Shown piece by piece: positions 6,149 to 64,000 of a stretch of DNA of 64,000 bases; the stretch's first letter is position 1; every line of letters starts with the position of its first letter. The stretch spans positions 25,778,004 through 25,842,003 of the forward strand of contig NC_089279.1 in NCBI RefSeq assembly GCF_963678975.1, written 5' to 3'. The notes under the pieces are model-generated. The model was not told the origin of the DNA, searched no databases, and saw only the letters and a program-made list of their open reading frames with translations. Source of the DNA: Dysidea avara. Taxonomy: Eukaryota; Porifera; Demospongiae; Dictyoceratida; Dysideidae. Position numbers and translations under genes: made by a program.

Positions 6149-9100
6149 CTAGTGACAGTTCATGCATTCAGGATGACACTTCTTTCCTCCCCAGTAGTTA
6201 CAGCCACAACCCTACAATTAAGTAATAAAGATATTCAAAAATATGAGATGAACATATACATACATGTAGTGTTAGGAAATTCATATACATAGGTGTATAG
6301 GTTAGAAAGCTAGAGTGAGGATTTTAACCACAAGGCAAGCCTAGAGTTTTATGCCCAGAAGATCCATGAGTGCCCGTACTCTTACAATGCGACATTTTAT
6401 ATGGGTTATACAGGTTGAGCCACTGTGGGATTGCATTATGTGATTACACTATATACAATAAACAATATTTCTGACAACATAGTTCCTGAGTCGAAATCCC
6501 ATAGTTTTATTGTTAAGTGGCTTCTTTAGTATACGGATCTGCTGAGGATCAGAAAATTGTTTTGAGCTGACCAGGATGCTTTCCAAGGTAGTTTTTAGGC
6601 ATGCGTTCTATTAGGATTTTTGCAAAATAAAAACATGGACGATCCCTATTTTGAACCCACCATATGATATTACTAGTTACTTTTAATACCATAAACTCCA
6701 GTTATTAGGTACATACGGCTATTAAGTGCATATTGCTTGTTAAGGGCATATGGAATACTTGCGCTGAACACTTCCTGTTAAGCGCATATATGAAATTGCA
6801 CCTGCAAGCTAGTACTATGTGGAATGGTAGTAAAATACCAATAGAACTAGCCAGAAGCGCCACAGTACAGTCGATACTTCACCAGGCACGTGTCTAGCAG
6901 ATACCACCACCTGTATTAACGCAAGCATTAACGATAGCTGCACCTGACTTCAGGACTGTTGTTTCCTCGGCTGAAGTACGCTATTTGACTGATCACCGGT
7001 AACTAAATCACTAGAAAACGTGGTGGACATGAGTAATAGTTTCCTAGCAGACACCCGTTACAATTGTTTATTAAGAACATGCATTTAACAAGTGTAGTGC
7101 ATTTCTCAAATATAATTCTTCTGAAAATTATAAACGCATGCACTTAACAACTAAAGTCTACGGTATGCGCATTACTTTGCACTGTAGTAATGAGTAATAA
7201 GTATTACTTTGTAAAAGTAATGACCCAACACTGTACAGTGTTAGAAACGAAGAACAGTAAATCCAGTCACAACAGAAATTACAACTATAGTACATGTTAT
7301 CAACTACTGAAACGTGAAGTGGCCATTCTGCTTCAGTTTTTCAGCTGTGCTCCATCAATTATACAGTGTCACAAATGAAGAACAAAATGAGAAGTACCTC
7401 TGCAATCAAATTAAAACAATGAAGTTGCCATTACACATTACTGCCAATCAACACATACGCAGAATTGGAGAAATAATGGGACACAAAGGAGGACAAAGGT
7501 AAGTATATGATTCTTGTATTGCAGCTGGTGAAAAGGCATGACTCAGGAGTGACGTCAAACAGTTGAGAAATCAACCCTGTAGCCTTATACTGTACATGTA
7601 CGTGAAAGCATCAGTCGGTTAGTCAGTCAGTCAGTCAGTCAGTCAGTTAGCAGTAACTTAAGTTTAATAATTTTTATAGAAATATGAGTTTGGGGTCACT
7701 CTGAAGACATCTGTATAGGCTTAGATAAAGTACTGACATACAAACTCTTTGCATGAATATCATCTACTCACATTGGGTCCCCTCCTTGGTTTCTTAGTCA
7801 CCCAACAAATTTCTGTCTTACAACTACACATGATCCAGCTACAGCCATCTTTCTTCTGTACAATTAATCCACAATTTTGATTAGGACAATACATGGCCTC
7901 TCCATTCTTTATCATATCCTGAATAAACACATGGAATATTCAGGGACTATATAGCACTTTAATGTACTTCAAGCATCTTCTGAGTCTGTTGCGCAGCCAA
8001 GTCATTAACTGCCTTAATCTTCAAGTCTTCCTGATATTCCTTACAGTTCATCTCAGGATAATGGATGGCTTTACACAATAAACAGTTCCTCTTGTTGCAC
8101 ACTGGACAGTCAAAATCATTCACCTACATAAAATAATATATAACCTCGTAACGATCAAGTGAAAACATACTTCATCCTCATAGATACACCATCCATGGCA
8201 GTCAGGAGTTTTACAGTGGAAGCTCCTTTCTTGCCTTTCAACTAAATCAAGTCCTCGATTATGAACTTTAGCCAATTCCTCATCAGTCAGTAGCTATAGA
8301 GTAAACATGATCATAAAACACACCATCTGAAAACAGAGAGACTAATCCATAAAATAGTTTACCTGCACATTCAACATAGTTAATAGGCACACATTTAGCT
8401 ATAACTTTATTAGCCATAGTCAAGCAAGCAATAGAATTATTTCAGTTAGGATTCAAGAACTCCCTAGAATAAATGATTTGAGTACTCACAAATACTTGCT
8501 ACTATTAGCCACACCTATGTGACATTCTATTTTCAAACAATAACTATACAATTCAAACTAAGGTACACATACTGCTCGCATTTCCAATTCAGTGACAGTT
8601 CCTTTACAGTCGAACTCTTCATTACATGGACACAACACATCAGCATCACGAAAAGCTAAAACATGATCACGTAGACACTCCCTATCAAAAACCAAGTAAA
8701 AACCAGTAGCATTATTCAGTGATGTTGTACATAACATTTGAAGTATCAATAACCCCAGGGGCGGATCTAGGATTTATAAAAGGGGGGGGGCTAACTCAAG
8801 GTACTAATCTCTTGGGTAGAGGTGTACAAAGCACACTTCCCAGCATGCAAAGCATGCTGGAACTAGGGGGGTCTGGGGCCCAGGAAAAGTTTGAAAAATA
8901 GATGCTAAAATACTGCAATTTAGAGACATTTCCACATAAAATTCATACCTGTAGATATTTTATATACTGCCTTTAGATTGTAGGTATGGGTTCTCTGAAG
9001 CATTTTGCTAATGGAAAAGTTTGGGTAGGTACAGACAACCAAGTACATGATGTACAATTGCACAACACTGAATAGGTGCATGTTAGAATAAGATGTTGAA

Positions 9101-12100
9101 AGTGGAAAATTTTGAAATTTGAACTATACAAGATTGAATCTGAAAGCATTTTCTATGGAAATTGTGTACCTGAATTAAGTATTGCCATACATATTAACTA
9201 CACAAGTATAGATGCATGAATGAAGCCCTTTAAACAGACCAATGCACTTCATTGTATGTATAAGTGTAGGCAGATTTGGAAAAATTCCATAACAGAACCA
9301 ACTACATGTTTCCAGTGAATGTTCTATTAGAGTAGTTAGCTGACTGCTCTATTAGAGTATCTCGATCTTGTACACCTCCAATGCTGATCCGGGTCCTTGT
9401 TGCATAAACTTTAGCATAAATCCACTGATAATACCTTGGAAAGATGTTTATAAGGTGGTTTTATGAGTATTTGTATTATTAGTGATCATATAATTATGCT
9501 AAGACAAAATTTCATTATAATACTCAGCATATTGATCAAGTAAAGCCTAAATATGAAGGGGGGGGGGGGGGCTTCAGCCCCCAAAGCCCCCCCCCCCCCC
9601 CCCCCCTGGATCCGCCCCTGAACCCAGTATCTTACATACTTGCAACAATGGTGAAGACATTCTCTCAGTTTCACTCCTTCCCCAACCTCAATTGGGACCA
9701 TACAAATAGGACAGTCAAACTCAACATCATTTGGTACTAGATTCTGATTAGCTACAGCCATCATAGCATCATAATTCTCTTTAGCTTGCTTTGCCTGTAA
9801 CTCTTTCTGCTCTTTTTCATACTACCATAAAAATAAAAGATATTAACAATATGCACAATGGGAATTCATATCATACTTCCTCTAAATCTTGTTTCCCTTT
9901 CTGCTCATCTTGTTGCCACTTCAGTTCCTCCTCGGTAGCTTTATAGTCAGGTGGAGGCTTGTAGTCATCAGGTCGGACAGTCCCACACACCTCACAACCA
10001 GGACGATATGGTAAATTGATCACTGTACACACTGGACATGTCCAGCCAATCGGAGGAGGAGTGGGAGGACGAACCAGTTCTGGTGGTGGCTGCTGTACCA
10101 CAGCTTCTGGCATGATGGGCAATGACTGGTTTTGTGGATTTAGTTGTAGTCCCCTAGTACCAACTGATTTAGGTAGTACTCTAGGACCAGAATCACCACG
10201 ACGCTGTGGTGTTGGCTCTGGTGGTGGAAGTGACTGATTATATCCCTGATTCTGTGATGGATGACTTGGAGAATAACCTTGATAGTTAGGTTGATTCTGT
10301 TGAGAATTAAATTGCTGTTGTTTATATGGTTGCTGATTTGATTGGCCATAATGGCTCTGTTGACGATGCACTGGAGCAGGGTTTGATCGATTGTATTGAC
10401 TCTGTTCTTTTAGATTGTACTGTTGCCCTGACTGTTGATCGTATCTTTGACCTTGATGCTGTTGATATTGCTGCACTGGAGAAGGTTGACTATACTGTTG
10501 ACCTTGATACTGTCTTGATTGTTGATATTGTGTGGAAGTATCATCAACAGATGGAGCATCCTTCCCCATATCTCCTTTACTGATAAACAGGTATATCTCA
10601 GCCCCTTTGCTCTTGATACCAAAACTTTTTAATGTAGCCTCCTTGTCAGTGACAAAGCTTTGACCAACAATCCAATGCTGTTGATCACTACTGATGGAGT
10701 ACTTCAGCTCAATCTTAAGATTATATAAGAATCTGTTAAAGTGAACATTCATCAATTTTTCCCTTACCATTTCCTGTAGCTTCTTGATGGTGTCATCTTC
10801 AGTGACAAACAAGTAACAAGGAATTGGGCCCTCTTCCAAAAACATCTCACGCTCTATTGTTACGCGTAACCTGCATCAATCCATGTAATATAACTACACT
10901 ATCTATGCTATGCTATGGTAAATATAGTTAACTAGTTACCATATGAAACAACAATTCTCATTCAGTATAATACTTTTCAAATTCACTACATATGCTCTGT
11001 AGGCAACTATACAAAATATGTAACTATATTTTGTATTATCATTAAGCACTAATTTGCTATTATGACATAACCCAGGAGGCCCCGCAAAGCAACACTTACT
11101 TGAAAAATTGTTTTCTGTTACCACGAGGGAATACAATGCCAAAGTTTCCTTGATTCTTTTTAGCCTCAATCAGTTTTTCCACAACTACTTTAACATAATC
11201 AATGTCCCCCTCATAAAGAGCTGCCTCCAAATGTTGAGCATAACTCTCTACATGGTAATACCACTAGGCTGTATCCAATTACACAGTTTCAACTTACCTA
11301 GTTCTTCCTTAGTCTTGATGGCTGGTTTTGGTACTTGATCTACTACAGCAGTTGATCTTGGCACATCTTGTGTTCCACCATTGCTGGTTGGTGGGGCTGG
11401 TTGTTGAGCCCCACCCCTCACTGCATAGTTAGGAGGATGGCCATCCCTAACACCTGGACCTGATGGTATATACTGATCCTGTCTTCTACCATATTGCTCT
11501 TTCAGGTAGGAGTTGGATCCATTAAGTGATCCTCTGTAGTTCCCAGCAAATGTTGTGAACTCAGAATGATGGGAGGATGGGGTAGGTCTACCAATAGGCA
11601 TACTAGTAGGTCCTGAGGAAATAAGACAATTACAAAAGATATTCTAATAGAACAGCCAACTACTTTAATAAACAGTCACATCTTTTGAGTTAGCATTTCT
11701 GTGTGTGTACACCAGACGGATCCAGGGGGGTGGGGGGAGGGCACCTCCCCCCTTCAGAATTTTTGTAGTGTTGCTCACTGAACATAGCTAGGCACCTTAG
11801 ACATAATTAGAACATTTTTTAGGCAGTTTAGGACTATGTGTAATATAATAAATGTGTCTATAACAAATTCTTACCCATATTGACACAGCACAAGGGGAAC
11901 TAGGTGGGATGAGCACCCTCTACATTTAGGAATCGAGATACTCTAATACAACAGTAATTTACTTTAATAAAACAGTCAAGAGTAACATAATTATAAAACA
12001 CTGTTTGTCATTTTAAACAACTAAAACACCTGTGTTAATGACTCTATCCACACCCTAGTGACTATAGAAATTCTCTGGAGATGCAGCTGGACACCAAATG

Positions 12101-14698
12101 CCAGGACTATCTATATGCTTTTTGTGATGCTTGTGCAGGGGACCTTATGCTAATTCTAAAAATTTAAACTCAATTTTAGCCAAAATTAGTACCAAAATCA
12201 TTTTCAAAGTCAAGTTTTTAAAATTTCCTTATAGACCTTGTATTGAATTTTCATAAGCATTTACAAATTTTAGTCAAACTTATCTCACAATGTCCAGTTT
12301 TCAAATTTCATTAGGAGGCAGTTTAAAACTAGTTCTCAATATCTTCCAGTGTTTGAACAAATTTCAGTCAAAATTGTCACCAAATTCAATCTCAGAACCT
12401 CAATTTTTCAAAATTTCCTTTGGAGGTGGGGAGGGAGAATGCCCCCAGACCCACCTCTAGAAAGCTCATGCTTCTGGATCCACCCCTGAGACACATACAT
12501 GTGAAGGTTTCACTTGCTCATAGCACACTAAGCATAGTGTCCATTGGGAAGACAAGGAATTATATTGTTGGATTGGGAAGTCTTGGATAATGTAGAATGT
12601 GTATTTTGACACCCTCCTGAAGCTTTTCTTTTCAACAACATTGACACCACTTCTGAAGCCTATTGGTAATCAATAGGACTTTCCACTTCATATTATCAAG
12701 CTGAATGTATCTTTAGACATGTATTGCAAGTTAAAATCAGATCTCATGCTACTATCAGCATATGAGACTAATATATTGGCAGTCACTTTATATAGTTTCA
12801 GCTTCTGTGCTGAAAGTGTCAGCCTTAGCGTAAGCGATCGAATGTCGACTGGTATCTTATGTCGATCACAGGTGTATTTAAAGTCGAATACTGAAATTAT
12901 GAGGAGCTGCCTGAATATTCACTACGGTAAGGATAGTTGGAGACAAGAGCTCTAGAAAGAATCCTAAGAAGTGAAACAGGCCCCCAAGGAATACACGAGA
13001 ACTCTATCATATCCTGGATTCCAAATAAGGAAAATGGCAATCGAGATGCTATAACATTATGGAACGAACCTGAAATCACACTCTGGATGCATAAACAATG
13101 AAATTGTAGCCAGTAATGGCACTGTCGTCCGTTTGAGCCATGTTACAACAGTGTTGAAACCGGGTTGGGTCATCCGGGTCTGACCCGGTTTACAATTTAT
13201 CCGGGTCAGACCCGGATTGGATCACGTGAGAAACGAAATTGTTCGTTTGACGACATGGAACTTATAAACGCTATCGCGTAGCTCTTTCGTGAGCCACGCC
13301 CACTTATCACATTACCAACATATGCTCAGTCACGCCCATTTGTTAGTAAGTGCAGTATGTAGCACGAAACTGAGGGTATCTATGGTGAGGGGTAGCTATT
13401 GTCAGTAGGTGAAGACCTTTTTTTTTTGGTCTTCAACCTACAGCTAGGCTGAAGTTGCAATATTTACTCAACACGAGTCGAACGCTCAAAATGTAGACTC
13501 GTTCGCTCGCTCGAGACTAGCCGAAACACGTCTCGGCTTTAATTAATCCGGGTCACACCCTGGTCAATCCGGGTCAAATCCAGGTTTGACCTGGATTGCT
13601 ATCCGGGTCAGTGGGTCATCCGGGTCAGCAGTAGTGACCCGGTTTCAACGTTGTGTTACAACACTAGATAAGGTCTTTTTCGTGTTTCATTTCACTACTT
13701 CGTTACCACATGGTTGTTACAGACAATACCATATATGGATAATGATCTTGAGAATTGTGGAGTCCGATAGTATCCATTAGTAATCTACTCCGTAAATGCA
13801 GTTACTATGGCAAAGGAAAAAACCGAGGGTGGTCGACTTAAAGATATTGAATAATCTATTATGGTCAAGTTAAAATACGCGTGGTCGACTTTTGATATAG
13901 AGGGAATGAAACCAAAACTGTCTTGACTACTTTTTGCCGGTTAGTTAAGTATAGGCGCAGATTCTACTTACACTTGCAGTGATGTTAAACTAATAAGCTT
14001 TGCCATAGGTTGAATGATATTAGCTTCGTGGAGTATAATTGAATAGTGGTCGACAATCGATCGCTTACGCTATGGAATATGAGGTAACCAGCAATAATGC
14101 AGAGATGTTAACCTGCAGACATAAGCAATTACATGCTCTCCCACTTGAATTGTTAGTGTATTTACAGAGCATTCCTAAAGGGTCACAAGCAGAGTTTATC
14201 AGTAACCCTGGCAACCTTGCACCAACAAGTCTAGCTTTATATTCAAATAGCTGGCACCATAGATAATGATAGCTACGTATCTATGCTGGTACATGACGAA
14301 TTAGAGTTTTGGCCACCCATACCTGGAGCAGCACACTGCTGCAATAATCCCATGAAGCTTCTTGCTTCCATATCGTTTCGGAATCTCATCCCTAAATTGA
14401 TCCTGTCCATTCCATTATTTGTCACTTGTAAGAATCCCTCATCCGTTTGCTTCACTGATATCGATACAGTGTTAGTTTGGTAAATAACCTAACGAGTGAT
14501 ATCGTAATACTATCAGGATAAGATGGTGTATAGTACCTGTCCGTCTTGCTTGCAGTATAACACATGGCCTCTTTCATTTTCTATCAGTTGTATTTCACAC
14601 CTGCGACTGTCACCGTTGATGAAATTTACCCAGCCGCCTTGTTGACTAACGAACAATAATGCGTCGAAACTAGCCCTAATTCTTCCAGAAGTGTTCAT
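6149..14698 (-). CDS. RBCK1-like: HOIL-1/SHARPIN-like RBR E3 ligase, copy A
   Basis: Twelve exons splice in frame into 836 codons plus stop: 14698-14537, 14488-14323, 11612-11298, 11247-11100, 10870-10768, 10713-9877, 9821-9640, 8681-8573, 8293-8171, 8123-7968, 7918-7772, 6211-6149. All junctions are GT-AG and phases match. Residues 1-110 look like a PH/EVH1 fold ([14 protein letters not shown], then [20 protein letters not shown]), as in SHARPIN. Residues about 215-262 resemble the LUBAC-tethering helices of HOIL-1/SHARPIN. The UBL spans about 264-345 (LRVTIE to IYLFIS). Residues 349-520 are Q/Y/P-rich. The NZF is 521-548 ([21 protein letters not shown]). RING1 starts at C614, then IBR, then RING2 with KKDGC, where Cys793 matches the HOIL-1 catalytic Cys460. 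HOIL-1 ligases work with HOIP and add ester-linked ubiquitin. Human HOIL-1 is 510 residues and lacks the PH-like domain. The start is the ATG opening exon 1. A 54-bp intron splits the UBL. Confidence 0.93.
8756..9620. mobile_element. hAT-like element in intron of HOIL copy A
   Basis: The ends are CAGGGGCGGATCTAGG and CCTGGATCCGCCCCTG, a TIR typical of hAT elements, and both are followed inward by G or C runs. AACCC flanks both sides. The equivalent intron of copy B (about 53520-53555) lacks the 865-bp insert, so insertion postdates the A/B duplication. No transposase frame was seen. Confidence 0.8.
11717..12488. mobile_element. Degraded hAT-like element in intron 2 of HOIL copy A
   Basis: The left end CGGATCCAGGGGGG and right end CTGGATCCACCCCTGA are inverted. 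The left tip has lost its CAGGGG. Copy B runs uninterrupted through the same flank (about 55870-55895, CCAGACATGTCCATGTGAAG), giving the empty site. The inside is non-coding. Confidence 0.65.
12828..14070. mobile_element. TA-flanked TIR element in intron 2 of HOIL copy A
   Basis: Inverted ends GCGTAAGCGATCGA and TCGATCGCTTACGC continue into GTCGAC on both sides. TA lies on each side (12826-12827 and 14071-14072). The empty site in copy B reads GCCTTATGGAAT (about 59569-59580). A TA duplication suggests a Tc1/mariner-type transposase. The 1243-bp body has no recognisable transposase and contains a second nested element. Confidence 0.75.
13151..13652. mobile_element. Nested element with CCGGGTC repeats
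   Basis: The ends GTGTTGAAACCGGG and CCCGGTTTCAACGTTG are inverted. TGTTACAACA occurs directly on both sides (13141-13150 and 13653-13662), consistent with a target duplication of about 8-10 bp. The subterminal DNA is rich in ATCCGGGTCAGACCCGG-type palindromes. It sits inside the TA-flanked element. Confidence 0.65.
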
Positions 14699-16621: not shown

Positions 16622-16896
16622 TTTGGTGTTGAATATACATAGCTTGGCTGTAGGTTACTAATCAGTGAGAAGTAAATTTTACAATTAATATGGTCATTTA
16701 AAATACGAAAATACTATTAAAAACCTGCTCTGATAAAACATTTACTCTACTTTTGATATGCAAAAAATACAAGGGAATCTGAGGAACATAATTCTCACTG
16801 ACCAGTATAAAAGTTGCATACACAAAGAATACCAAATATAACTATAGCACAGCATTTAGCTTCACAATTATAATAAAGAAAAGTCAACTCCTTTAC

Positions 16897-18048
16897 CATT
16901 TCTTGCAGATACTTGATGGTGTCGTGTTCAGTAACAAACAAGTAGATTGGAATGGGACCATCATCTGGGAACATCTCTCATTCTATTGCAACACATAACC
17001 TACAAGTGAAAAAAGACACAAAGTCCATTATGTACTACTACATTACCAAGTGTTAGACATTTTGTTGTCATGTTTTGCTTATAGCACATATATAACCCCG
17101 AAACTCTCTAATAGAGCAGTCAGGGAGATAACAGTTGTCCAATCACTGTGACTGGATAAGAATGGAAGCAAATGTTTTTAATACACAATTTTCAAGTGTG
17201 TGTATTGCAGTCTAACACCTTGTCATTGTAAAGGTACATTGTTAATTGACAGGGAAAAACTACATAGATAAGATCTGCTAAAGATATTGGAAGCAATAAT
17301 CATTTCTTTGGTGATGCATACTTACTTTAAAAAACTCCATCCACCAACTGGTAAAAAGACACAGAAAAGTCTCTCTGATTCCTCTTAGCCTCAACTAGTT
17401 CCTTCACTACCACCTTAGCATAATCAACATCACCTTCAAACTGATCTAGAGCTGCCTCCAAGTGTTGACCATAACTCTCTATAACCACACAACACCACAT
17501 GATATCACAATACAGCAGTACAATACTTAATCAATCAACACATACTAGAATTTTACAAAAAAAAAACATATTAAAGAAATTAATCTGGTACTTAGCATTT
17601 AACTAGTTTCACACATGTGTGACATTCCTTGTTCTCACAGCCTATCACCCACTCCTAGCTATTACAGTACACAGTGTACTTAAACTTGCCTTACACTACC
17701 ACACTTTATTTTTACTGACTTACCCAGCTCCTGCTGTGATTTGATTAATGGTCTCTTAGGGTCCTAGTCCCATTACACTTGATCTTGGCACCTCTTATAT
17801 TCCACCTCTAATGGTGGGCGGGGCTGGCTGCCAAGCCACACCCCTAACTGGCTGTGGACCACAGTCACATTGCAAGTCATCTCTAACTCCACTTGGTGGT
17901 ATATACTGATCCTGTCTTCTAACATATTGTTCTTGTGGGTAGGAGTTGGGTCCATTAGGTGATCCCCTGTGGTTCCCTCCAGCAAATGTTGTGAACTCAG
18001 AATGATGGGAGGATGGGGTAGGTCTACCAGTAAGCATACTAGTAGGTC
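16897..18048 (-). pseudogene. HOIL-like copy C, decayed fragment (exons 3-5)
   Basis: Three exon-like blocks match copies A and B in order: exon 3 (18048-17724), exon 4 (17478-17326) and exon 5 (16999-16897), with splice sites still recognisable. Exon 3 loses frame after the [16 protein letters not shown] block and regains it at PLIKSQQEL. Exon 4 is 153 bp instead of 148 and ends in a stop. Exon 5 has an in-frame TGA where A encodes Arg (ERE). No UBL C-half, NZF or RBR exon follows on the left. The PH-like exons were not found on the right. Confidence 0.85.
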
Positions 18049-18999
18049 CTGAAAGAACAAGATAATACGTACACAATCTTTCTTCACAACAGAACATGTG
18101 TTTAAGACATAAAAGCTTTGCTGCATGTCTATATTATGCCTGCTTTCATCATTACCAGTTCAGCATGCACACACTCTGAATAAAAAAAAACACTTAATGT
18201 GGAGAAGTATATCACTTTACATAGCAACTTGCATACAGCCACACATGGAATTATAGAAACCATAACCACTGAATAATACATAATGCTAACCCTTCTTCAC
18301 CTTTAAAAATCATGCAATAAATACTTTGCACTCGATGGTCAGCAAATTCTGCAGTTAGTTACTAAAATTCCTACACGTCATGTAATAGAAACAAATAATC
18401 ACAGGATACCATGTACAATGTCGTGTATGGTTCTGTATAACACAATTTTAAAGGTGCCAATTACAGTAACGGAATGGCAACAAAAAAACATTGAGTGCTC
18501 CATTGAAAGTTATGATCCTAACAGAGAAAACATCATGGTAACTCCAATGCTCAACGAGACACCTGTTCACCTGCCAACATAAAATTGCTGCCAATTGAAC
18601 CACCATCAACAATCAAGTCAATCATTTTTGGGTCATTTCCAAACTTAAATTAGTTTTTCTTGACACAACATCAGTATCAACCAACTTAGTCCATACTGAT
18701 ATGATATTTAATGTATTTTATTTTTACAAAAAGGTTAGCCTACTGGGTCCATAAAACAAGAAAAGGTCAATGTGGTTTTGTCCTGAAAAGAGACTACATG
18801 GCCATGCAACCTCTTGTGCACCCAAGGCAATCATTTGGACAAGGTAGGTTTGCAGGTTAACAGCCATCTTCCAGTTGGCTATGTTTGCTTATTTGCCTTG
18901 ATTTTACCGGTCTTATTTCTTTTCTACAAAATTAACAAACAGGTTTGTGAATGAACAAACATATTCACATTGTTTTTGTTTTGCTTTTAATACAAGTTG

Positions 19000-24530: not shown

Positions 24531-24923
24531 TTAGCTAAGTGTAATTGTGTATGAATTACTCCTCACAATATTGTGAAACTTTTGATCTTGAGATGGAGTT
24601 ACATGTTGCTCTGGACTTTTACTATGTAGTACTTGAGTCTTCCTTATTGAAGTAAAGTAGTACCATGTAAATGCTATTCCCAAAATTATTAGCAGAACAA
24701 CAATAACAGAAACTGCTATAGTAGCAGTTGACTCATCTGATGACAATGACAACTGTACACGATTACAGGTGTGATCATTTCTATCAAGAGCATAACTGGA
24801 GTTACAAGAACATCTATAGGATCCTGGCTGGTTGATACACACTTGACTACAATTCCCATTACTTCACTGACACTCATCAACATCAAAGCAGCTATTACCA
24901 TTAGATGATACGATAAGTTGTAC
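24531..24923 (-). pseudogene. Last exon of EGF/transmembrane protein with in-frame TGA
   Basis: From a good acceptor (TTAACCAG at the right edge) the frame reads a calcium-binding EGF start (FDVDECQ), a TGA, then SNGNCSQVCINQPGSYRCSC. It continues through a spacer, one transmembrane helix (IAVSVIVVLLIILGIAFTWY) and a cytoplasmic tail of about 40 residues to TAA. The exon is 131 codons in phase. The TGA falls inside the EGF module, where CGA (Arg) would be a plausible ancestor. No upstream exons were found, so this may be a fragment or the end of a gene broken by the stop. It could be a receptor, but the family cannot be named. Confidence 0.6.
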
Positions 24924-26837: not shown

Positions 26838-28375
26838 TAGCATGGGTAGCAGTGAAATTTGGGATAAATATCACGAGTGTTGTATTGGAAATGGGAATAA
26901 ATTTCACGAGGCGAAGCCGAGTGAAATTTACCATTTCCAATACAACAAGAGTGGTATTTATCCCAAATTTCACTGCTACCCATGCTATTCCCAGTTAATA
27001 CCATACTCGCTGCATATGCTGCATTAGCTTTGCTATGTATGCCATGATGATACAGGCGAATGATTGTTACATGGATAGCCTAGAAAGGAATATTGGTGAG
27101 GTCAATTCTATCAACTGCTTATCTCACATGACCACATACACCATTGGTAGTACCAATGGTTACCCCTTACCACATTTCAAGCAAAAAAAAAAAAAAAAAA
27201 AAGTGAAACCGGCATGATGATACAGGCGAATGATTGTTACATGGATAGCCTAGAATGGAATATTGGTGAGGTCAATTCTATCAACTGCTTATCTCACATG
27301 AACACATACACCATTGGTAGTACCAATGGTTACCCCTTACCACATTTCAAGCAAAAAAAAAAAAAAAAGTGAAACATGATGATACAGGCGAATGATTGTT
27401 ACATGGATAGCCTAGAAAGGAATATTGGTGAGGTCAATTCTATCAACTGCTTATCTCACATGACCACATACACCATTGGTAGTACCAATGGTTACCCCTT
27501 ACCACATTTCAAGCAAAAAAAAAAAAAAAAGTGAAACCGGCATGATGATACAGGCGAATGATTGTTACATGGATAGCCTAGAAAGGAATATTGGTGAGGT
27601 CAATTCTATCAACTGCTTATCTCACATGACCACATACACCATTGGTAGTACCAATGGTTACCCCTTACCACATTTCAAGCAAAAAAAAAAAAAAAAAAAA
27701 GTGAAACCGGCATGATGATACAGGCGAATGATTGTTACATGGATAGCCTAGAATGGAATATTGGTGAGGTAAATTCTATCAACTGCTTATCTCACATGAC
27801 CACATACACCATTGGTAGTACCAATGGTTACCCCTTACCACATTTCAAGCAAAAAAAAAAAAAAAGTGAAACCGGCATGATGATACAGGCGAATGATTGT
27901 TACATGGATAGCCTAGAAAGGAATATTGGTGAGGTCAATTCTATCAACTGCTTATCTCACATGACCACATACACCATTGGTAGTACCAATGGTTACCCCT
28001 TACCACATTTCAAGCAAAAAAAAAAAAAAAAAAAAGTGAAACCGGCATGATGATACAGGCGAATGATTGTTACATGGATAGCCTAGAATGGAATATTGGT
28101 GAGGTAAATTCTATCAACTGCTTATCTCACATGACCACATACACCATTGGTAGTACCAATGGTTACCCCTTACCACATTTCAAGCAAAAAAAAAAAAAGT
28201 GAAACCGGCAATCTGTCACTGTACTAAACACGCGTCGACACTAATTGGCGCTACATTGTTAACATAAATTCTAGCCAATGAAATTGCAATTACAACTTTT
28301 TCACTGCTGTCAGTGAAATACGGGATAAATTTCACTGCTACTAATACTATTGAGACTTTTGTACGGGCAGTGAAA
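26838..28375. mobile_element. Hairpin element with GCGAAGC loop, locus 2, carrying a satellite
   Basis: A long hairpin spans about 26848-26986. Its arms carry AGCAGTGAAATTTGGGATAA and TGTTGTATTGGAAATGG and their complements, around the loop GAGGCGAAGCCGA. A direct third copy of the arm (CAGTGAAATACGGGATAAAT) lies at about 28310-28345. The interior is the 7-unit satellite listed next. The design matches loci 1 and 3. Confidence 0.55.
27044..28210. repeat. Satellite, 7 units of about 163-172 bp
   Basis: Units begin at 27044, 27214, 27376, 27542, 27712, 27877 and 28047 with ATGATGATACAGGCGAATG. Each contains the palindrome ACCATTGGTAGTACCAATGGT and ends in a poly-A run of variable length followed by GTGAAACC. 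Length differences between units come mainly from the A-run. The open frames through it are not genes. Confidence 0.92.
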
Positions 28376-51888: not shown

Positions 51889-54800
51889 CTAGTGACAGTT
51901 CCTACAATTAGGGTGACACTTTGGCCCTTTCCAGTAGTTACATCCGCAGCCCTACATGTATCAAAAAATATTACAGTGAAGTGATAATCAGTGGATGACT
52001 AAATGTTCAACATTTCCAACATTTGACTAATTACTTAAACCTCAAGTCCATGTAGGGCATTCATCCTATATTCACTGCTATTCAGTGGTTTATTACATCA
52101 TCACCTTCAAGCTGTTTCTTTTCAAAGGAACCGAAGATGAGTCTAACAACTCGTGTGCTATTTGTAAAATAAAAGAGCCTGAACAACTCAAAGCAGTGAA
52201 CTAAGTAACCATATCTTTTGTAAGCTCTCTGTGCTGTAGAGGACCAGAAACAGAGCTGTCTTTTAATTACCCTACCAGTATTACTGACACTCTATGGCTG
52301 CATATTAACTGTTAGCACTGTTAACATAACCAAGCACAGCCCAGGAAATTACTGCTCTCTTTATAAGGACATGTTTCATTAACAAAAGATAGAACACAGC
52401 TATATCCTGAGTGTTACGCTCCTTTACGCCTTGTGGTGCTTATGAGCTCCTTAAGATAGAATTAAAATACCTCAAATAACATAGCCTTCTGTAACAGACA
52501 CACTATGTTGAAAATTAGCTTTGAAAATTCAGTCAGTGCATGCATGGTTAGCAAATCTGACTTGCACATTTAGTTATGGTTATTTCCATTAAGTCCATAC
52601 TCTTCTGCTACGTGCATTGAAATATCATGAAAGCTATATGAAACTCACATTGGGACCCCTCCTTGGCTTCTTAGTCACCCAACAAATTTCTGTCTTACAA
52701 CTACATTGTATCCAGTCACAGCCATCTTTCTTCTGTACAATTAATCCACAATTTTGATTAGGACAAAACATGGCCTCTCCATTCTTTATCATATCCTGAA
52801 TAAACAAATGGATTATGCAGGAACTATATTAGTTTATAATTACCTCAAGCATCTTCTGAGTCTCTTGTGCAGCCTCGTCATTAGCTGCCTTAATCTTCAA
52901 GTCTTCCTGATATTCCTTACAGTTCATCTCAGGATAATGGATGGCTTTACACAATAAGCAATTCCTCTTGTTGCACACTGGACAGTCAAATTCATTCACC
53001 TACAAACAATAGTATGTAAACACGTGACCATCAGCTGGCTAAAAAATTATATACATACCTCATCCTCATAGATACACCATCCATGGCAGTCTGGTGTTTT
53101 ACAATGGAAGCTTCTTTCTTGTCTTTCAACTAAATCAAGTCCTCGATTATGAACTTTAGCCAATTCCTCACCAGTTAGCAACTATAGGGTAAGTATAATA
53201 TACTTCATATATTGTTATACATACAATACCACCTCCTACGTACATGTAACAAAATAGAGAAACTTAGTATTGTGGCAATACAATGATTATTATTTGGCAT
53301 AATTAATAACCTTTGGCAATTTGTTTTCATGCATTATACAATTCAAACTATGGCAGGTACACATACTGCTCTCATTTCTAATTCAGTGACAGTTCCTTTA
53401 CAGTCAAACTCTTCATTACATGGACACAACACATCAGCATCACGAAAAGCTAAAATGTGATCACGTAGACAATCCCTATAAAAGAACAAGTATAAATCAC
53501 TCAGTGCTGTTGTTGTACATAGCATTTGTGTGTAACAATACCATAATATCTTACACACTTGCAACAATGGTGAAGACATTCCCTCAGTTTCACTCCTTCT
53601 CCAACCTCAATTGGGACCATGCAAATAGGACATTCAAATTCAACATCATTTGGTACTAGGTTCTGATTAGCTACAGCCATCATAGCATCATAATTCTCTT
53701 TAGCTTGCTTTGCCTGTAACTCTTTCTGCTCTTTTTAATACTACCATAAAAAATAAAAGATATTAACAATATGCACAATGGGAATTCAATTCATACTTCT
53801 TCAAAATCTTGTTTCCCTTTCTGCTCATCTTGTTGCCACTTCAGTTCCTCCTCGGTAGCTTTATAGTCAGGTGGAGGCTTGTAGTCATCAGGTCGGACAG
53901 TCCCACACACCTCACAACCAGGACGATATGGTAAATTGATCACTGTACACACTGAACATGTCCAGCCAATCGGAGGAGGAGTGGGAGGACGGACTGGTTC
54001 TGGTGGTGGCTGCTGTACCACAGCTTCTGACATGATTGGCAATGACTGGTTTTGTGGATTTAGTTGTTGTCCTCTAGTACCAACTGATTCAGGTAATACT
54101 CTAGGACCAGAATCACCGCGACGCTGTGGTGTTGGCTCTGGTGGTGGAAGTGACTGATTATATCCCTGATTCTGTGATGGATGACTTCGAGAATAACCTT
54201 GATAGTTAGGTTGATTCTGTTGAGGATTAAATTGCTGTTGTTGATACGGTTGCTGATTTGATTGGCCATAATGACTCTGTTGACGATGTACTGGAGCAGG
54301 GTTTGATCGATTGTATTGACTCTGTCCTGGATTGTACTGATGCGCTGACTGTTGATCGTATCTTTGACCTTGATGCTGTTGATATTGCTGCACTGGAGAA
54401 GGTTGACTATACTGTTGACCTTGATACTGTCTTGATTGTTGATATTGTGTGGAAGTATCATCAACAGATGGAGCATCCTTCCCCATATCTCCTTTACTGA
54501 TAAACAGGTATATCTCAGCCCCCTTGCTCTTGATACCAAAACTTTTTAATGTAGCCTCCTTGTCAGTGACAAAGCTTTGACCAACAATCCAATGTTGTTG
54601 ATCACCACTGATGGAGTACTTCAGCTCAATCTTAAAATTATATATATAAGAATCTGAACATTCATCAGTTTTCCCCTTACCATTTCCTGTAGTTTCTTGA
54701 TGGTGTCATCTTCAGTGACAAACAAGTAACAAGGAATTGGGCCCTCTTCCAAAAACATCTCACGCTCGATTGTCACACGTAACCTGCATCAATCCATGTA

Positions 54801-57800
54801 ATATAACTACACTACACTACACTGTGCTATGCTATGGTATATATAGAGCCATGTTTACTAGTTACCATTTGAAACAGCAATTCTCATTCAGTATAATACT
54901 TTTCAAATTCACTAAAATATGCTCTATAGGCAACTATAAATAACTATTTGTATCATCATCAAGAAACCCTATAAAATAAATAAATCGCTAATTTGCTAAT
55001 ATGACATAACCTAGGAGGCTCCGCAAAGCAACACTTACTTGAAAAATTGTTTTCCGTTACCACGAGGGAATACAATGCCAAAGTTTCCTTGATTCCTTTT
55101 AGCCTCAATCAGTTTTTCCACAACCACTTTAACATAATCAACATCTCCCTCATAAAGAGCTGCCTCCAAATGTTGAGCATAACTCTCTACATGGTAATAC
55201 CACTAGGCTATATCCAATAACACAGTCTCAACTTACCTAGTTCTTCCTTAGACTTGATGGCTGGTTTTGGTACTTGATCTACTACAGCAGCTGATCTTGA
55301 CACATCTTGTGTGCCACCATTGCTGGTGGGTGGGGCTGGTTGCTGAGCCCCACCCCTCACTGCATAGTTAGGTGGATAATCATCCCTAACACCTGGACCT
55401 GATGGTATATACTGATCCTGTCTTCTACCATATTGCTCTTTCGGGTAGGAGTTGGGTCCATTAGGTGATCCCCTGTAGTTCCCTCCAGCAAATGTTGTGA
55501 ACTCAGAATGATGGGAGGATGGGGTAGGTCTACCAGCAGGCATACTAGTAGGTCCTGTGGAAATAAGACAATTATCTAATAGAACAGCCAACTACTCTAA
55601 TAAAACAGTCACATTTATATCACTTAAAATCTGTACGTGGCTACTTAATTTATCTATAATAGCAGAGTAAAACATAGTCCAAAATATTATCTTGGGGTTT
55701 CTAAAATCTAACAACTTCCCTGGGGACATTCCACCAGAATAATATCTTTATGTTTCAAACTGTGTTGCCAACATTGGTCCCTTCACTCTTTGGCCTCTCC
55801 CACCACCCCTGCTTAGCAATCTGACATTCATTTTTATATTACGTTAAACCTTTTGAGTTTGCATTTTTATGTGTGTATACCAGACATGTCCATGTGAAGG
55901 CCTCAGTTGCTCATAGCCAGGCTTGGGGTCAAATACTTTGATAAGTATTTAAATACAAATACTCTGAAAGTATGAAATACAAAATACAAATACTTTTGTA
56001 CTTTGATCTGAACTAGTTACACAACCACCCAATAGTATACACCTGTTTTAACATTGTTCTAATAAAATTTCAAGTGTATGGTAAAAGCAACTGACCACTT
56101 AAATAATATATAGGACTTTCCACTTTAATGTATCATTACAGACATGTCACTACAAAAACGGATCGGATTTACGTATATTCCCTTGTTTCAGGAAACTCAT
56201 GGAAAGACGATCTTTCAAGCCCTCTAACTTTCCATATAGTTACATTGCACAGTAAACATATGTACAATTGTTAAGTTTGTAAATGTATACAATGGAAGTT
56301 CAAGTTATTTTAGCTGAGAATTTAATACTGGTGAACTGAATGAGACTGACTAGCTATAGCTACAAAGCGCGAGCTATAGACTGCTGACGTCAAGCAGCCA
56401 TGCCAGCGATTGCTAGAACTGGGCGCTCCGCATGGCCACTCTGATTTAGATCTAGTCTACCTATATGGCTATTATCACCAGGAAGTCTAGTTGAAGTCGT
56501 TATCGCCATTGCAGAGTAACTTATCCTCACCACAAAACTTGCAGCAGCGCGTCATTGCGTTAATTCTTCTAGGAAATGTTAGTTTATTATAGTTTACGGA
56601 AGTTGTAACAAAGAAGCTGCTGTTGGCGAGGCTGACGGTGATCGTGTGTGATACAAGTAGAACAGTTAATGATCAGGTTTAACGCTGAAGTATAGTGTGA
56701 TGGTGGCACGCATGGTTGGGGGAGAAAGATTGCAGCTTGTTGACCCGAAATCCTGCCGTGGCCTTCAGACTATTGTGGCGCCATCACCTTGTACCGAGTC
56801 TGTTTCCCGACTTTCAGTTTTGGACACTCAAGTACAATAGAGGCAAGCATTAATTTGCCTGTGTTTGTTTGTTATAGTTGGTTTTAGTGTAGCAACACGG
56901 ATCGCGAGATTTATGAACTAGTCTAGGAGTTTCAGACCGCAGTTTTAGTGAATGACTGAGGGTTATGCTTGAGGTAAGTTTTATGTATGAGATACTGCAC
57001 GTACTCCTTTGCATTGATTTTTTAGGGATGAGACACAAGTCAAGAATGGACTACCACATGAGAACTTTTAAAGTTTCAGGTTAGTGGTTTTTATTAATGT
57101 GATTACTGGTTGTTAGCATGGAATGTATGTCAATAAGTGTGTCTCCTCTAACACATACCCATGGCTCAAGTGTATTATCAACTTTACTAGTTAGGCACTG
57201 GAGGGCAAACACAGAAGGTAGAGCTTGTGTGAGGCATTTACCACCAGCCAGAATGTTTTTTTTAAATAGAAATATAGTGAAATTATTCTGCTTGACCTTG
57301 GCAGTATTAGAAGTTTAGGACACAGCATACTCAGTTTTTTGACATTTCTGATGCTAATGTATAGTTGTTTTTTTTTGTAGTAGTTTTTTTTTTTTGTAGT
57401 AGTAGTAGTAGTAGTATTCACCATGCTGTAACATTCGGTTCAATTATTTTTAGGTACAATGATGTGAAAAATCAGCTATCTATATTATAATCCAACAAAA
57501 AGTCGAAAGGTGGCTTCAAAATCTGAGCTTTCATACACATCATTGTTTACTACACATCAGATAAAAGTACCCCTATCGCCACTGGCCTACACAAAAACAT
57601 AGTGCTACTGTGGTCCAATATTAAAAAGGCAACTGCTTTTGTATAGTACTACTGTATGCAGTTCTATGCTTATGTATTTATACTCAGTTTATGTAATTTA
57701 TTTCAGCACGTTTTTGAATGAGATCCATATTGGCTGCAAGGCACCTGGTGAAAGACAAAAGGGTCTCCTGGTAAAAGACTCCCTCCTCCACAAGCTCCTG

Positions 57801-60711
57801 CTGGACTTCTCTATGGGCTCCGGTGAAAGACTCCTGGGCTCCTGGTAAAAGACTCCTGGTCTGCTCTTAGTAAAAATCTCTCTCTATGGACTCCTGGAGC
57901 AAGATAAAGAGACTGACACTGAACATTGCACTTTACATGCATGTAGTTATATAATATTGCCTTGTATGGTATAAACAATCAATATATTTACATATAAATT
58001 ATTTTACATAATTAGGGGAGTATTGGAAGTATACATATACGATGGAATTTCCATTATGTTCCTTACATTTCATTATCTTTCCTTGTGCTTCCACAAAGTA
58101 AAGCCAAGGAAAAACAGCTGAATCTTTAACAGGAAAGTTCTGTAAATACCATATTCCCTTACTCTAGGAAAGCTAGATTTATACATGGAAATATGACATT
58201 TCCATCATCTTTCCATCCTTCAAAAAGCCAATGGAAAGCTATACAGTTTTTGTAGTGTGTATTGCAAGTTAAAATCAGATCTGATACTACTATCAGCATA
58301 TAAGACTAATATATTGGCAGCCACTTCATATAGTTTCAGCTTTTATTGGGGTGAGCCTAAGCGAGCCCCACACTAGCGAGAGAGCTGTCAGTCATCGTCT
58401 ATTACACGGCAATATACGATTAAGTACGAAAAACTGTCAGTATACGGCAACTCCACGATTAAATACGAAAAACAAACCCTACAAGTTGTCTAGTGTCACA
58501 CAAGAATGCGATAGTATAACAAGAAGTGTCTGTCGTCAATGTCACAGAGGAAATTAACGGCATAGATTACTGGACTTCCTTATTTGTACTTGTCATCGTC
58601 AATGCCACAGGAAAATTAACGGTATAGATTAATGGACTTCCTTATTTGTACTTGTCATCGTCAATGTCACAGTCAAGTTGTACCACGTGTTGCTACCAGT
58701 TTTCATAATGGAAGACACCAATCATGGCTGACAACGAGCGTAGAAATGCTAGGAGAAGAGCAGAGAACTGCAGAAACACCTACAGAGACAGAAGAAAGGA
58801 GACGTAGACACCGTGAATACATGCGAAGAAGACGAGCAAACATTAGTTCTGATGAACAAAGACAATAAACCGAGAGTACACGCAAAGGAGAAGAGCAAAC
58901 AATGCAAGTGAACAGCGCCAACATACAGATCACGCACCATTCATTCTTTCGGATTGTACGAACATCCTGATGATAGCTAACATCACAGAACAAGAGCACC
59001 GTGACCAACATAGCTACGATTTTGAACAAGACCAATGTAATAGTGAGGAAGAATTAGATGGTGAACGGGATAACTTAGACAGTGAAAAGGAACGATTAAA
59101 TGGTGAAGATGAAGAATTAGTTAGCGAAGAGGAAGAATTAGATGAAGAGAATGATTTTTTGAGCGAACAACAATTTCATAGTGAACACACAGACATAATT
59201 ACAGCAACAATAAAATTATTTGTATGTTACATATATGTAGCAATCATGAGTAATTCATATTTAAGTGTCATCATAAAATAATTATTATAACTTATTACAA
59301 AATTCTGTGTGTGGTGGAAGGAAATCGTATTGTAGTAGCTAAATCATTCCCTACGTTAATAAATGAATTAAACACAATTACTAGGTATAGCTATACACTT
59401 GCAGGTTATATTACACAATACTTTTCAGAAGCTCTTCTTAGTTGTAAATCCAAGCTGCTATCATACTGCAACGTCCTTAATCATAATATGTTGTACCCTG
59501 CACACACAAAATACTCGCCCCTTGATGCTGGTAGCATCTGTCTAGTAACATGTTATGCTGAAAGTGTTAGCCTTATGGAATGTGAGGTGATAATAATGTA
59601 GAGATGTTAACATGCTGACATAAGCAATCACATGCTCTCCCACTTGGATTGTTAGTGTATTTACAAAGAATTTCTAAAGGGTCAAAAGCAGGAGTTTATG
59701 ATCTGTAATAAGTCTAGCTTTATATTCAAATAGCTGGCACCATAGATAGTGATAGCTACGTATCTATGTCGGTACATATAATAGTTAGACACCAAGACCA
59801 AGGGAACTAAGCGATTTAGTAACCCCAATGGCCCGAGGCTGTAGCGTCCCAAGCGCAGCGAGGGCGCTACTAAGGGCCAGAGGGGTTACTAAATCGCTTA
59901 GTTCCCGTTGGTCGCGGTGTCTAACTTATTTAGACTATGGTTTAAAGTACATACCTTTATAGCCAGAGCATTGGGTGGTGTGAAAGAGCAATGCAGAACA
60001 GCAGAACGGTTTCTTTCTGAAGTCCTTACAGCGCCCACAAAAATAATTATTCGACTGGTAACCAGAGTAACGGCTAGAGCTACAGTAGATACGCCGTTTA
60101 GTCTACTATTCTCCAGAATTATTCACAGAACAAGGAGAAGAATTGTATTACAGTATTATCAAGTACTCCAGTGTACCTGTCGTGTTATAATTATTTTTCA
60201 CGTACAAAATTGCCTGAGGGCGGGTTACTAAATGAACATGTGTAGGTGACTAAATGAGCATGTCAGGTGACTAAGTGATTTAGTAACCCTCTAAATGAGC
60301 TATATCATAGTCTAAGATGAATTAGAATTTTGGCCATTCATACCTGGAGCAGCGCACTGTTGTAATAATCCCATGAAGCTTCTTGCTTCCATATCGTTTC
60401 GGAATTTCATCCCTAAAGTGATCCTGTCCATTCCATTATTTGTCACTTGTAAGAATCCCTCATCCGTTTGCTTCACTGATATCGATACAGTGTTAGTTTG
60501 GTAAATAACCTAACGAGTGATATCGTAATACTATCAGGATAAGATGGTGTAGTACCTGTCCGTCTTGCTTGCAGTACAAAACATGGCCTCTTTCATTTTC
60601 TATCAGTTGTATTTCACAGCTGCGATTGTCTCCGTTGATGACCCACCTGCCTTGTCGACTGACGAACAATAACGCGTCGAAACTAGCCCTAATTCTTCCA
60701 GAACTGTTCAT
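51889..60711 (-). CDS. RBCK1-like: HOIL-1/SHARPIN-like gene, copy B, with in-frame TAA
   Basis: Exons: 60711-60556, 60509-60344, 55554-55237, 55186-55039, 54783-54681, 54630-53797, 53740-53559, 53475-53367, 53181-53059, 52999-52844, 52795-52649, 51951-51889. Phases match copy A and the total is 835 codons. Domain order is the same: PH/EVH1-like, LTM-like, UBL, Q/Y-rich linker, NZF, RBR. Exon 1 lacks two residues present in A. The UBL intron is 50 bp (54 in A), which supports it being a real intron. The second codon of exon 7 is TAA (53737-53735) where A has GAA, so translation would stop after 576 residues, keeping PH, UBL and NZF but losing the RBR. An acceptor CAG 15 bp inside exon 7 would remove the stop in frame. 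It may therefore be a pseudogene, a truncated SHARPIN-like product or a spliced-around ligase. Confidence 0.88.
56148..58257. mobile_element. CACTA (En/Spm-type) element in intron 2 of HOIL copy B
   Basis: The ends CACTACAAAAAC and GTTTTTGTAGTG are perfect 12-bp inverted repeats. TGT is duplicated (56145-56147 and 58258-58260). Copy A keeps the empty site at about 12717-12725 (ACATGTATTGC). Subterminal ATGGAAA/TTTCCAT words repeat in both ends, as CACTA elements typically show. The 2110-bp interior has no recognised transposase, so it is probably non-autonomous. Confidence 0.85.
58525..58676. repeat. Tandem repeat of about 60 bp, 2-3 units
   Basis: Units carry GTCATCGTCAATGTCACAG, AAATTAACGG, then TAGATTAATGGACTTCCTTA. 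It lies within B-intron DNA absent from copy A. Confidence 0.8.
58700..59220 (+). mobile_element. Arg-rich repeat coding remnant, possibly Helitron-like
   Basis: Two frames give related blocks, [20 protein letters not shown] and [17 protein letters not shown], then a Glu/Asp-rich run. Repeats of the form R-x-Y-x-R-R-R-A-N-x-S/T-x-E-Q-R occur at the start of many Helitron-type proteins. A stop and frameshift lie between the blocks. The assignment is tentative and no Helitron ends were found. Confidence 0.35.
59780..60316. mobile_element. Hairpin element with GCGCAGC loop, locus 3
   Basis: Arms at 59783-59826 and about 59883-59927 are inverted with only a few mismatches. The core has GTAGCGTCCCAAGCGCAGCG then AGGGCGCTACTAAGGGCC, nearly the same as locus 1. 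A direct third copy of the arm (GACTAAGTGATTTAGTAACC) is at about 60269-60290. The end is ATAGTCTAAG. Copy A reads straight through this position near 14286-14302, so it is an insertion. Confidence 0.6.
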
Positions 60712-61273: not shown

Positions 61274-64000
61274 TTAATGACAACATCCACAGTTAGGATG
61301 ACAAGGTCTTCCAGCAAAAAAGTTACACTTGCAACCTCCAGATGTGTCACCATTACCCTGTGTAAAAAATAAACAAATAAAAAAAACAGAAAAGAATAGT
61401 GTAGTTTTTTTTCTTCACAAAACTGTTATCACAGGGAAATTTCACCCTCCTATTTATCATAGCTCTAATTCACACTTTATGAAAAACCACCTATGGTAAA
61501 GGATGAGCATTTTCACACAGGGTCGAATGCGCATTGAACGATTTCACATAGGAAATGCCTTAATACAAATTCACTTTACTTTGTATGTGCAGTCAAATGA
61601 AACCGCTTCCCGAGGTGGTTTGTGCGGACCCAATGCACATTGAGTAGGGCATGCCCTTACTGCACATGATAGCTTGTGCAATTACAACAGCAGTGAAAGG
61701 CTGGAGCAATGAAGCTATAAAAGCTTTAATAGCAATATGGGGTGAAAGTAATGTACAAGAAAAGTTGGACTAGGAATAAAGTCATTTATGAAGAAATCGC
61801 GGAGAAGATGTGTGCCCAAGGATATGACTATTCATGGTAACAGTGGACTAAAGTGAAAAACCTTGCATAGGGCTATCGTAAGGTAATACTTTTCTGTTAA
61901 ATGAATGTTGTGTAGCTATAGAAAACGTTGTGCATCATGTGATAACTTGTTCCAATTACTTATCGAGTTAAATGGTTAATTTGCACTGTTGCTGTATGTC
62001 TTTCTAGGTCAAAGATGAAAATCAAAAGACTGGAAACAAAAGGCGTAGCTGTCTTTTCTATGAAGAAATTGATGCTATCCTTAGTACTAGCGCTACCTCT
62101 CAACCAGTCATGATTCTTGAGAATATAGGAAATGTTGTAGCATCTCCACAATTATTCAATCAGAATGGTACCATTTAGCTCTAGTTTTGGCATTGCTTAT
62201 TATAAAATAAATCTGAATAGTAATTGTCACCGTCAGTGGCATCATCACCTTCTCGGGAGGGTGCTTCAACTGTTGTGTCTTAGAGCTTTCACAATGATCA
62301 TGGGACAGTCACCGACCATGAACACCCAGCTGATAACAATCAGATAGGTGAGAATCATTGTGTTTGTGCTTCTTACACTAGGTGCTATCAAAGGAGCTGT
62401 AAGTGGTGTGCAACTGCTACTAGTTCTGGCCAAAGCACTTCTACTACCACTACAGAAGACAGTATTGCTATTTCTACTGTTGCTACTACTTCTACCACTA
62501 ATACAGAAAGTGCTACTGGTGGAAAAGTAAGCATGTTGTTATCTACTGTTCTACAGGATTAAAGCATAAAAGGAAGGACAACTCGGACCGTGTGGAGAAA
62601 ATCATGAAAATGGACCAGGAAGCTGAAAAGAGGACAGAAGAGCACACCAGAAAATGGCTTGAGCAGGAAGAAGAGCATGAAGCAAAGGGAACAGGAACAT
62701 GAGCAACCCATGATTTCTTGCTTTTAATTGTTTATGTCTCAGATGACATCAATGCTACATCCACCAGCTGAGACTGCATATTCACAATACCATATTTTCT
62801 TCCCATATTCCAGTAGCAAACTTCCACCACCTCCAAATCGTTCACAGATGTATGGTAACCAGACCTTTGGGTCTTTTCCTAATGACACTTCCTAACAGTA
62901 CCTGCCTACATCAACTGGTTTAATGGAGAATCAACGATGCCTTGTACTATTATGGAATAATATCCCTTTCAGTTGTAGTAATCTGAAGGGTATTCTGTTG
63001 GTTTCAGGATGGGAATGTGAGTTGCACCGACTACTTGGGGAAATCCCTAAAGTGTCTCAAACTCATCCACTACTTCTCTTAGACATTGTTCTGGGGGTAG
63101 TTGCTTTACATACTGAGGTAAAAGGTTCTGAGTTATACATCCTATATACCACTTTACAAATGGTGGGAACGCCTAATCCAAACAATGCAGCTATTATACG
63201 ATATTGGCTAGCCTCCAGGTTGTAAGTGCTACTTAGACATCCATAGTGACAGCTTTCTTTAGATGAGGTTGAAGCTCAGTACACAATTGTATAAAATCCA
63301 AATGCTACAGTTCACTTTGTATCTATAGAGTAGTAATTAAGCACAGCCTAGGCAAATACCTTAATTAATTAAGAATATTTATACATATAGCAGTACAACA
63401 ATAAAGTAATGCAAGCAAGTGTAACATTAAAATAGAATCGCTGCTAAAGCATTTATTGAATAGCAGTAGAATAGCTGTAGGGCAATTTACAAAACTTGTA
63501 TTGCTTATCTATATCAATGTCATTCCATGCCACGTTGTCATTGGTCGGTCAACTTCTTCAGTAGTATGGAATGCCTTTTCCGTCTGTTAAACAAGTATCT
63601 TCTCCGAAGTTGAATGATTCGCCAAAGAAAGACTAGCGATAGAGAGACAAACACGATACTCTGTACCAAGGAAGCCACATGCACTTTACATAATTCTTCT
63701 GGCACACGACATCTTCGCCACAAACAGATGCGCTTTCAAATATTGCTGTATGAAATTGAGCAAAGCGCATTACATGCAAATAGGTGTCAATTCGCATTCA
63801 GTTTGCATCCTGTGTGAAAAGGCTTTAAAATCCACATAGTAGCCTGGGTAAAAAGTTGCTCGAAAGATTTAAACACTTGGGCCATCATTTGAGACAATAC
63901 AGTAGACAACCACCTCACACAGAATATACCTTAGGTCCCCAACGAGGTCCTTTGGTCACCCAACAAATCTCAGTTCCACAACTACACTGTATCCAGTCAC
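61274..64000 (-). CDS. RBCK1-like: HOIL-1-like gene, copy D, 3' end only
   Basis: The last exon (61357-61274, 28 codons) reads GNGDTSGGCKCNFFAGRPCH then PNCGCCH and stop. The preceding exon (from 63930 to beyond 64000) reads [20 protein letters not shown] then GPK. Both are clearly closer to vertebrate HOIL-1 (GPRWGP, DTSGGC, CHPxC) than copies A and B, which read KKPRRGPN and a shorter last exon. The 2.6-kb intron between the two exons holds a Harbinger-like element. The gene continues past the window, so the catalytic cysteine, just upstream, is not visible. It sits 563 bp upstream of copy B's start, head to tail. Confidence 0.85.
61512..63822. mobile_element. Harbinger-like element in last intron of HOIL copy D
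   Basis: TTTTCACACAGG at the left and CCTGTGTGAAAA at the right are inverted, followed by related GAATGCG words. Inside is a Myb/SANT-like coding remnant on the plus strand. An Arg-rich minus-strand frame near the right end (63538-63723) could be the start of a transposase, but I cannot confirm it. Harbinger elements typically carry a transposase and a Myb-like protein, which supports the class. The target duplication is not clear. Confidence 0.55.
61690..62895 (+). pseudogene. Myb/SANT-like DNA-binding protein remnant
   Basis: The first block (61715-61881) gives ALIAIWGESNVQEKLD, RNKVIYEEIAEKMCAQGYDY then KVKNL and YRK, interrupted by a frameshift and TAA/TAG codons. A donor-like GTAATA follows. 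After an acceptor (TTTCTAG at 62007) the second block reads VKDENQKTGNKRRSCLFYEE, IDAILST. A third block near 62556-62690 is a charged coiled-coil (DRVEKIMKMDQEAEKR). This is the layout of Myb/SANT-like proteins linked to Harbinger elements. The stops make it non-functional. Confidence 0.7.

Follow-up and report, generated by a model that had tools for sequence, protein, structure and literature searches.

A HOIL-1-type gene with a probable PH-like N-terminus in a tandem array of the sponge Dysidea avara

In vertebrates, the PH-like domain belongs to SHARPIN and the RBR to HOIL-1, and the LTM, UBL and NZF are common to both proteins. Can one gene hold the parts of both, and, if so, is such a gene like their ancestor or a fusion of its own lineage? 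These questions are raised by a stretch of 64,000 nucleotides of the sponge Dysidea avara (NCBI RefSeq contig NC_089279.1, positions 25,778,004 to 25,842,003 of the forward strand; the window hereafter), which contains at least four HOIL-1 copies or remnants (A, B, C and D), all on the minus strand. Copy A, gene A hereafter, had been predicted from its sequence to combine the SHARPIN and HOIL-1 architectures. On balance, gene A is taken here to encode an RBR ligase of the HOIL-1 type whose N-terminal domain belongs to the PH superfold, and to be, most likely, a co-orthologue of vertebrate HOIL-1 and SHARPIN.

Gene A and its HOIL-1 parts

Gene A (minus strand, 14698-6149) consists of twelve exons, which join into one HOIL-1 (RBCK1) frame of 823 residues, the stop codon ending at 6149. 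All 11 introns are of the GT-AG type with consistent phases and the codon of Gly97 is split across the 14323/11612 joint, so the twelve phase-matched exons and the divided glycine codon between exons 2 and 3 stand as originally predicted. An in-frame TAA is located two codons 5' of the ATG in copies A and B alike, and the exon-1 Met is therefore the earliest possible start within exon 1. At 54 nucleotides, the fifth intron of gene A is open and in frame; its counterpart in copy B has 50 nucleotides, so the stretch in gene A is an intron and a single exon in place of exons 5 and 6 is ruled out. The exons are as follows:

14537..14698, minus: exon 1, start codon and first half of the putative PH-like domain, residues 1-54
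14323..14449, minus: exon 2, second half of the putative PH-like domain, residues 55-96; ends in phase 1; weak acceptor AAG|C
11298..11612, minus: exon 3, Pro/Ser-rich linker, residues 97-201; split codon of Gly97
11100..11247, minus: exon 4, LTM-like region, not significant alone
10768..10870, minus: exon 5, first part of the UBL
9877..10713, minus: exon 6, remaining UBL, Gln-rich linker and NZF (about residues 508-540)
9640..9821, minus: exon 7, helix and start of RING1
8573..8681, minus: exon 8, RING1
8171..8293, minus: exon 9, RING1-IBR helix and start of the IBR
7968..8123, minus: exon 10, remaining IBR
7772..7918, minus: exon 11, RING2 with the predicted catalytic Cys780 and Trp782
6149..6211, minus: exon 12, C-terminal Cys cluster, last residue His823 and stop

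The UBL, the NZF and the full RBR expected in this frame were borne out by matches to HOIL-1 sequences in the PDB. The RBR (residues 563-823) matched human HOIL-1 (8eaz_A) at an E value of 3e-75, and the NZF with a HOIL-1-like tail (residues 503-556) matched 8im5_A at 2e-12. The UBL gave a moderate match (phmmer against the PDB), 4e-7 for the best HOIL-1 UBL versus 0.15 for the SHARPIN UBL, that is, it is closer to HOIL-1 than to SHARPIN. In the RBR alignment gene A and human HOIL-1 were identical at 123 of the 225 gap-free columns (55%), and gene A has the equivalents of human Cys460, Trp462 and the C-terminal His510 in the invariant columns C186, W188 and H229. According to the accessible parts of two papers, HOIL-1 uses Cys460 as the catalytic residue, Trp462 replacing the usual His, and the C-terminal His510 as a base (PMC9853177, PMC11962058). 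By these alignments gene A encodes an intact UBL, NZF and RBR with the active-site residues of HOIL-1. The spacing in RING2 differs, Cys-x4-Cys and Cys-x-Cys in gene A as against Cys-x2-Cys in both places in human HOIL-1, and a GDTSGG stretch of human HOIL-1 is missing from copies A and B.

Like vertebrate HOIL-1 (RBCK1), gene A has an LTM-like region, a UBL, an NZF and an RBR in that order and C-terminal Cys residues, but, unlike it, adds a probable N-terminal PH-like domain and Pro/Gln-rich linkers. Like vertebrate SHARPIN, it has a probable PH-superfold domain at the N-terminus followed by the LTM-like region, UBL and NZF; however, SHARPIN ends after the NZF, whereas gene A keeps the full RBR. 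A gene model that unites the parts of HOIL-1 with an N-terminus like the PH superfold, arranged as in SHARPIN, is thus supported, and of the predicted combination of the two architectures it is the labels PH and LTM that sequence did not secure.

The N-terminal part

Exons 1 and 2 encode about 97 residues and are real coding exons under purifying selection between the copies. Copies A and B differ there by 17 substitutions in 94 codons, of which 1, 5 and 11 are at codon positions 1, 2 and 3, respectively, and amino-acid changes as few as these appeared in 0.3% of neutral simulation runs (P 0.003). The ratio of nonsynonymous to synonymous substitution rates (dN/dS) between A and B was 0.17 in exons 1-2, 0.126 in the RBR, 0.105 in the LTM-UBL part, and 0.34 and 0.53 in the linkers. 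A chance open frame is ruled out by the codon-position pattern and the dN/dS ratio.

These exons matched nothing in the PDB by sequence. Their fold was judged from two structure models, both of which have strands followed by a C-terminal helix. The first model was of low confidence and its match list mixes folds. The second and better one was built with exons 1-2 of copy B and contains an intron-derived insert; among the matches listed for it, almost all are of the PH superfold, EVH1 domains coming first and PH, PTB and Ran-binding domains also appearing. The absence of a SHARPIN structure among the matches listed is uninformative, as only the best matches are included. Of the PH/EVH1-like N-terminus first proposed, the resemblance to the PH superfold, EVH1 being best, has therefore held in a low-confidence model and support from profiles has not. 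The front end of gene A is probably PH-like by its modelled fold, and its kinship to the PH domain of SHARPIN rests mainly on position.

One ancestral gene or a fusion

Over the LTM-UBL part human HOIL-1 and human SHARPIN are 51% identical, and gene A is 27% identical to the former and 24% to the latter. These identities fit a split of HOIL-1 and SHARPIN after this lineage had branched off. In addition, according to the accessible part of one study, the mollusc Aplysia has a single HOIL-1 gene, SHARPIN has no gene of its own there, and one isoform lacks the TRIAD (RBR) domain (PMC9334734), which fits one ancestral gene. That gene (HOIL1, LOC101863809) is entered there under both HOIL-1 and SHARPIN; the likeness to gene A is in gene number, and a PH domain is not mentioned in that part of the text. 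In a 2024 paper on the linear ubiquitin chain assembly complex (LUBAC), the PH domain is called, in the part available, a unique feature of SHARPIN unlike HOIL-1 (PMC11322871), and none of the titles and abstract openings listed from the open-licence literature, in some cases a small share of the results, describes a HOIL-1 bearing a PH domain. A search for relatives in viral contigs and bacterial genome contigs led nowhere.

Several results tell against a co-orthologue of this kind. A faster rate in the lineage of gene A would yield the same LTM-UBL identities. Against it, or neutral, is the outgroup-rooted UBL tree, in which gene A groups with HOIL-1. The support for this grouping is 81/82 when two outgroups are used and 88/100 when there is a single one; neither rooting reaches the program's star, the branches are long, and a single clade of HOIL-1 and SHARPIN is not rejected (p-AU 0.31 and 0.26), so the tree leans to HOIL-1 without decision. 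Exons 1-2 matched no Pfam family, Sharpin_PH included, and the second structure model has a mean pLDDT of only 48, that is, low confidence. The LTM-like region is in the expected place and keeps the residue equivalent to Ala18, and this much of its assignment stood; it has no significance by sequence, since it gave no match to PF25393 at E <=10, while human SHARPIN matches at 4e-18, and 520 of 5000 shuffles scored as high against HOIL-1 and 639 of 5000 against SHARPIN. Furthermore, among the 22 acceptors scored, that of exon 2 (AAG|C) comes last in both A and B and that of exon 3 ranks 14th-15th, and a Met in exon 3 (residue 101), a possible start of its own, is kept in A, B and the remnant C.

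A lineage-specific fusion, by which a HOIL-1 gene gained an unrelated upstream PH-superfold domain and became similar to SHARPIN by convergence, is less likely. It would account for the missing match to Sharpin_PH, for a match list headed by EVH1 and shared among PH, PTB and Ran-binding domains, and for the lean of the UBL tree to HOIL-1, and the longest intron of both copies, intron 2, is where such a fusion would have occurred. However, the added domain would then happen to be of the same superfold and in the same place as in SHARPIN, ahead of LTM-UBL-NZF. The PH domain of SHARPIN may simply evolve fast, and the reported lack of a separate SHARPIN gene in Aplysia also speaks for one ancestral gene.

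It is improbable that exons 1-2 encode a separate short PH-like protein and that the RBR protein starts at the Met of exon 3. The conserved Met 101, the weak acceptor of exon 2 and the 14th-15th rank of the exon 3 acceptor point in this direction, as does the absence of PH-like exons near the remnant C in a tblastn search. Translation running past the exon 2 donor would add a short tail, a stop being reached within 17 codons in copy A and within 12 in copy B. In both copies the acceptor of exon 2 sits 5 nucleotides behind a better CAG, the use of which would give a stop. On the other hand, the donor of exon 2 is 6th-7th best among the 22, the phases match in both copies and no coding pattern is seen where the second introns are alike. 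These introns (2710 nucleotides in A and 4789 in B) share five stretches at E <=1e-3, two with frame-breaking gaps and three ungapped (85, 37 and 36 nucleotides), and the stop-free frames of the latter carry 3-4 amino-acid changes versus 0-1 silent ones each. A hidden coding exon in intron 2 was accordingly rejected for the five shared stretches, though exons not common to both copies would escape this comparison. Less probable still is a coding domain of another fold, which the low model confidence, the lack of a profile match and the mixed list of the first model would permit, but which disagrees with the strands and C-terminal helix of both models and with the nearly uniform PH-superfold matches of the second.

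If gene A is a co-orthologue of HOIL-1 and SHARPIN, its product may work as follows. In mammals, as the accessible part of one paper describes, the HOIL-1 and SHARPIN LTMs co-fold, and both UBLs bind the UBA region of HOIP (PMC6044281). If one gene supplies both subunits, the simplest arrangement would be for two similar subunits to share a single HOIP. The product would bind a HOIP-like partner via its UBL, and its LTM-like region, perhaps together with the PH-like domain, would pair it with another copy of itself or with the product of B or D, bringing two UBLs to one HOIP. The PH-like domain would be a docking or pairing part, the NZF would recognise ubiquitin chains, and the RBR would put ubiquitin on hydroxyl groups of Ser/Thr or sugars. 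Vertebrates would later have divided these roles by duplication, HOIL-1 losing the PH domain and SHARPIN the RBR. A HOIL-1 with a PH-like domain, if true, would give the three-part complex a simple origin in the duplication of a single accessory gene, each duplicate losing what the other kept. It would also predict an accessory subunit that pairs with itself and make the question of why vertebrates have two accessory subunits testable in an animal that may need one.

The tandem array and its surroundings

The other copies and remnants in the window are as follows:

51889..60711, minus: copy B, twelve exons as in A; TAA at 53737-53735
60711-60556, 60470-60344, 55554-55237, 55186-55039, 54783-54681 and 54630-53797, minus: exons 1-6 of copy B
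53740-53559, 53475-53367, 53181-53059, 52999-52844, 52795-52649 and 51951-51889, minus: exons 7-12 of copy B
16890..18051, minus: remnant of copy C, exons 3-5 with stop codons
20817..22213, minus: remnant of copy C, pieces of exon 10 and exon 12
61274..64000, minus: copy D, the last two exons, 64000-63930 (cut by the window end) and 61357-61274

The second codon of exon 7 is an in-frame TAA in copy B, where copy A has GAA. The stop lies between the NZF with its linker and RING1, so copy B as modelled gives a 563-residue PH-LTM-UBL-NZF product, which ends after the NZF and has the SHARPIN layout. Behind the TAA the RBR exons contain no further stop and differ from A by 15 amino acids in the aligned RBR, and an in-frame AG 15 nucleotides further on could skip the TAA. 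Possibly the stop arose recently, is bypassed by splicing or stems from an error in the assembly. The array, with a copy stopping after the NZF as modelled, would be a case where a split of the HOIL-1/SHARPIN type may be under way. A broader proposal, and a rather doubtful one, is that the array preserves the single gene from which both LUBAC accessory subunits descend, and also the step to SHARPIN, a single nonsense codon leaving PH-LTM-UBL-NZF in copy B. Full-length and SHARPIN-like copies could then pair like vertebrate HOIL-1 and SHARPIN, and duplication with loss of the RBR would be how the vertebrate arrangement came about, for the first time or anew.

Synonymous divergence between A and B is uneven: it is about 0.1 in the UBL and linkers, whereas exons 1-2 reach 0.20 and the RBR 0.31. 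This may reflect gene conversion of the middle part. Copy D ends in a His equivalent to the C-terminal His of human HOIL-1 and retains the GDTSGG stretch; in the last two exons it is identical to human HOIL-1 at 37 of 50 positions, the corresponding figures for A and B being 28 and 29 of 43. As a separate observation, intron 1 (14450-14536 in A, 60471-60555 in B) is identical over all 85 aligned bases, although the exons on either side have 17 differences in 282 positions.

Other features of the window are an MPEG1 (perforin-2) gene between the HOIL-1 copies at 43401-45134 on the plus strand (MACPF 3e-20, MPEG1 in the PDB 1e-136), an exon of a GDT1-type gene at 37983-38306 on the minus strand, which we read as TMEM165, and an exon at 24534-24863 on the minus strand with an EGF-like part followed by what we read as a likely membrane helix. 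Tandem arrays are present at 2487-2903 (33-nucleotide units) and 27043-28210 (units of about 170 nucleotides).
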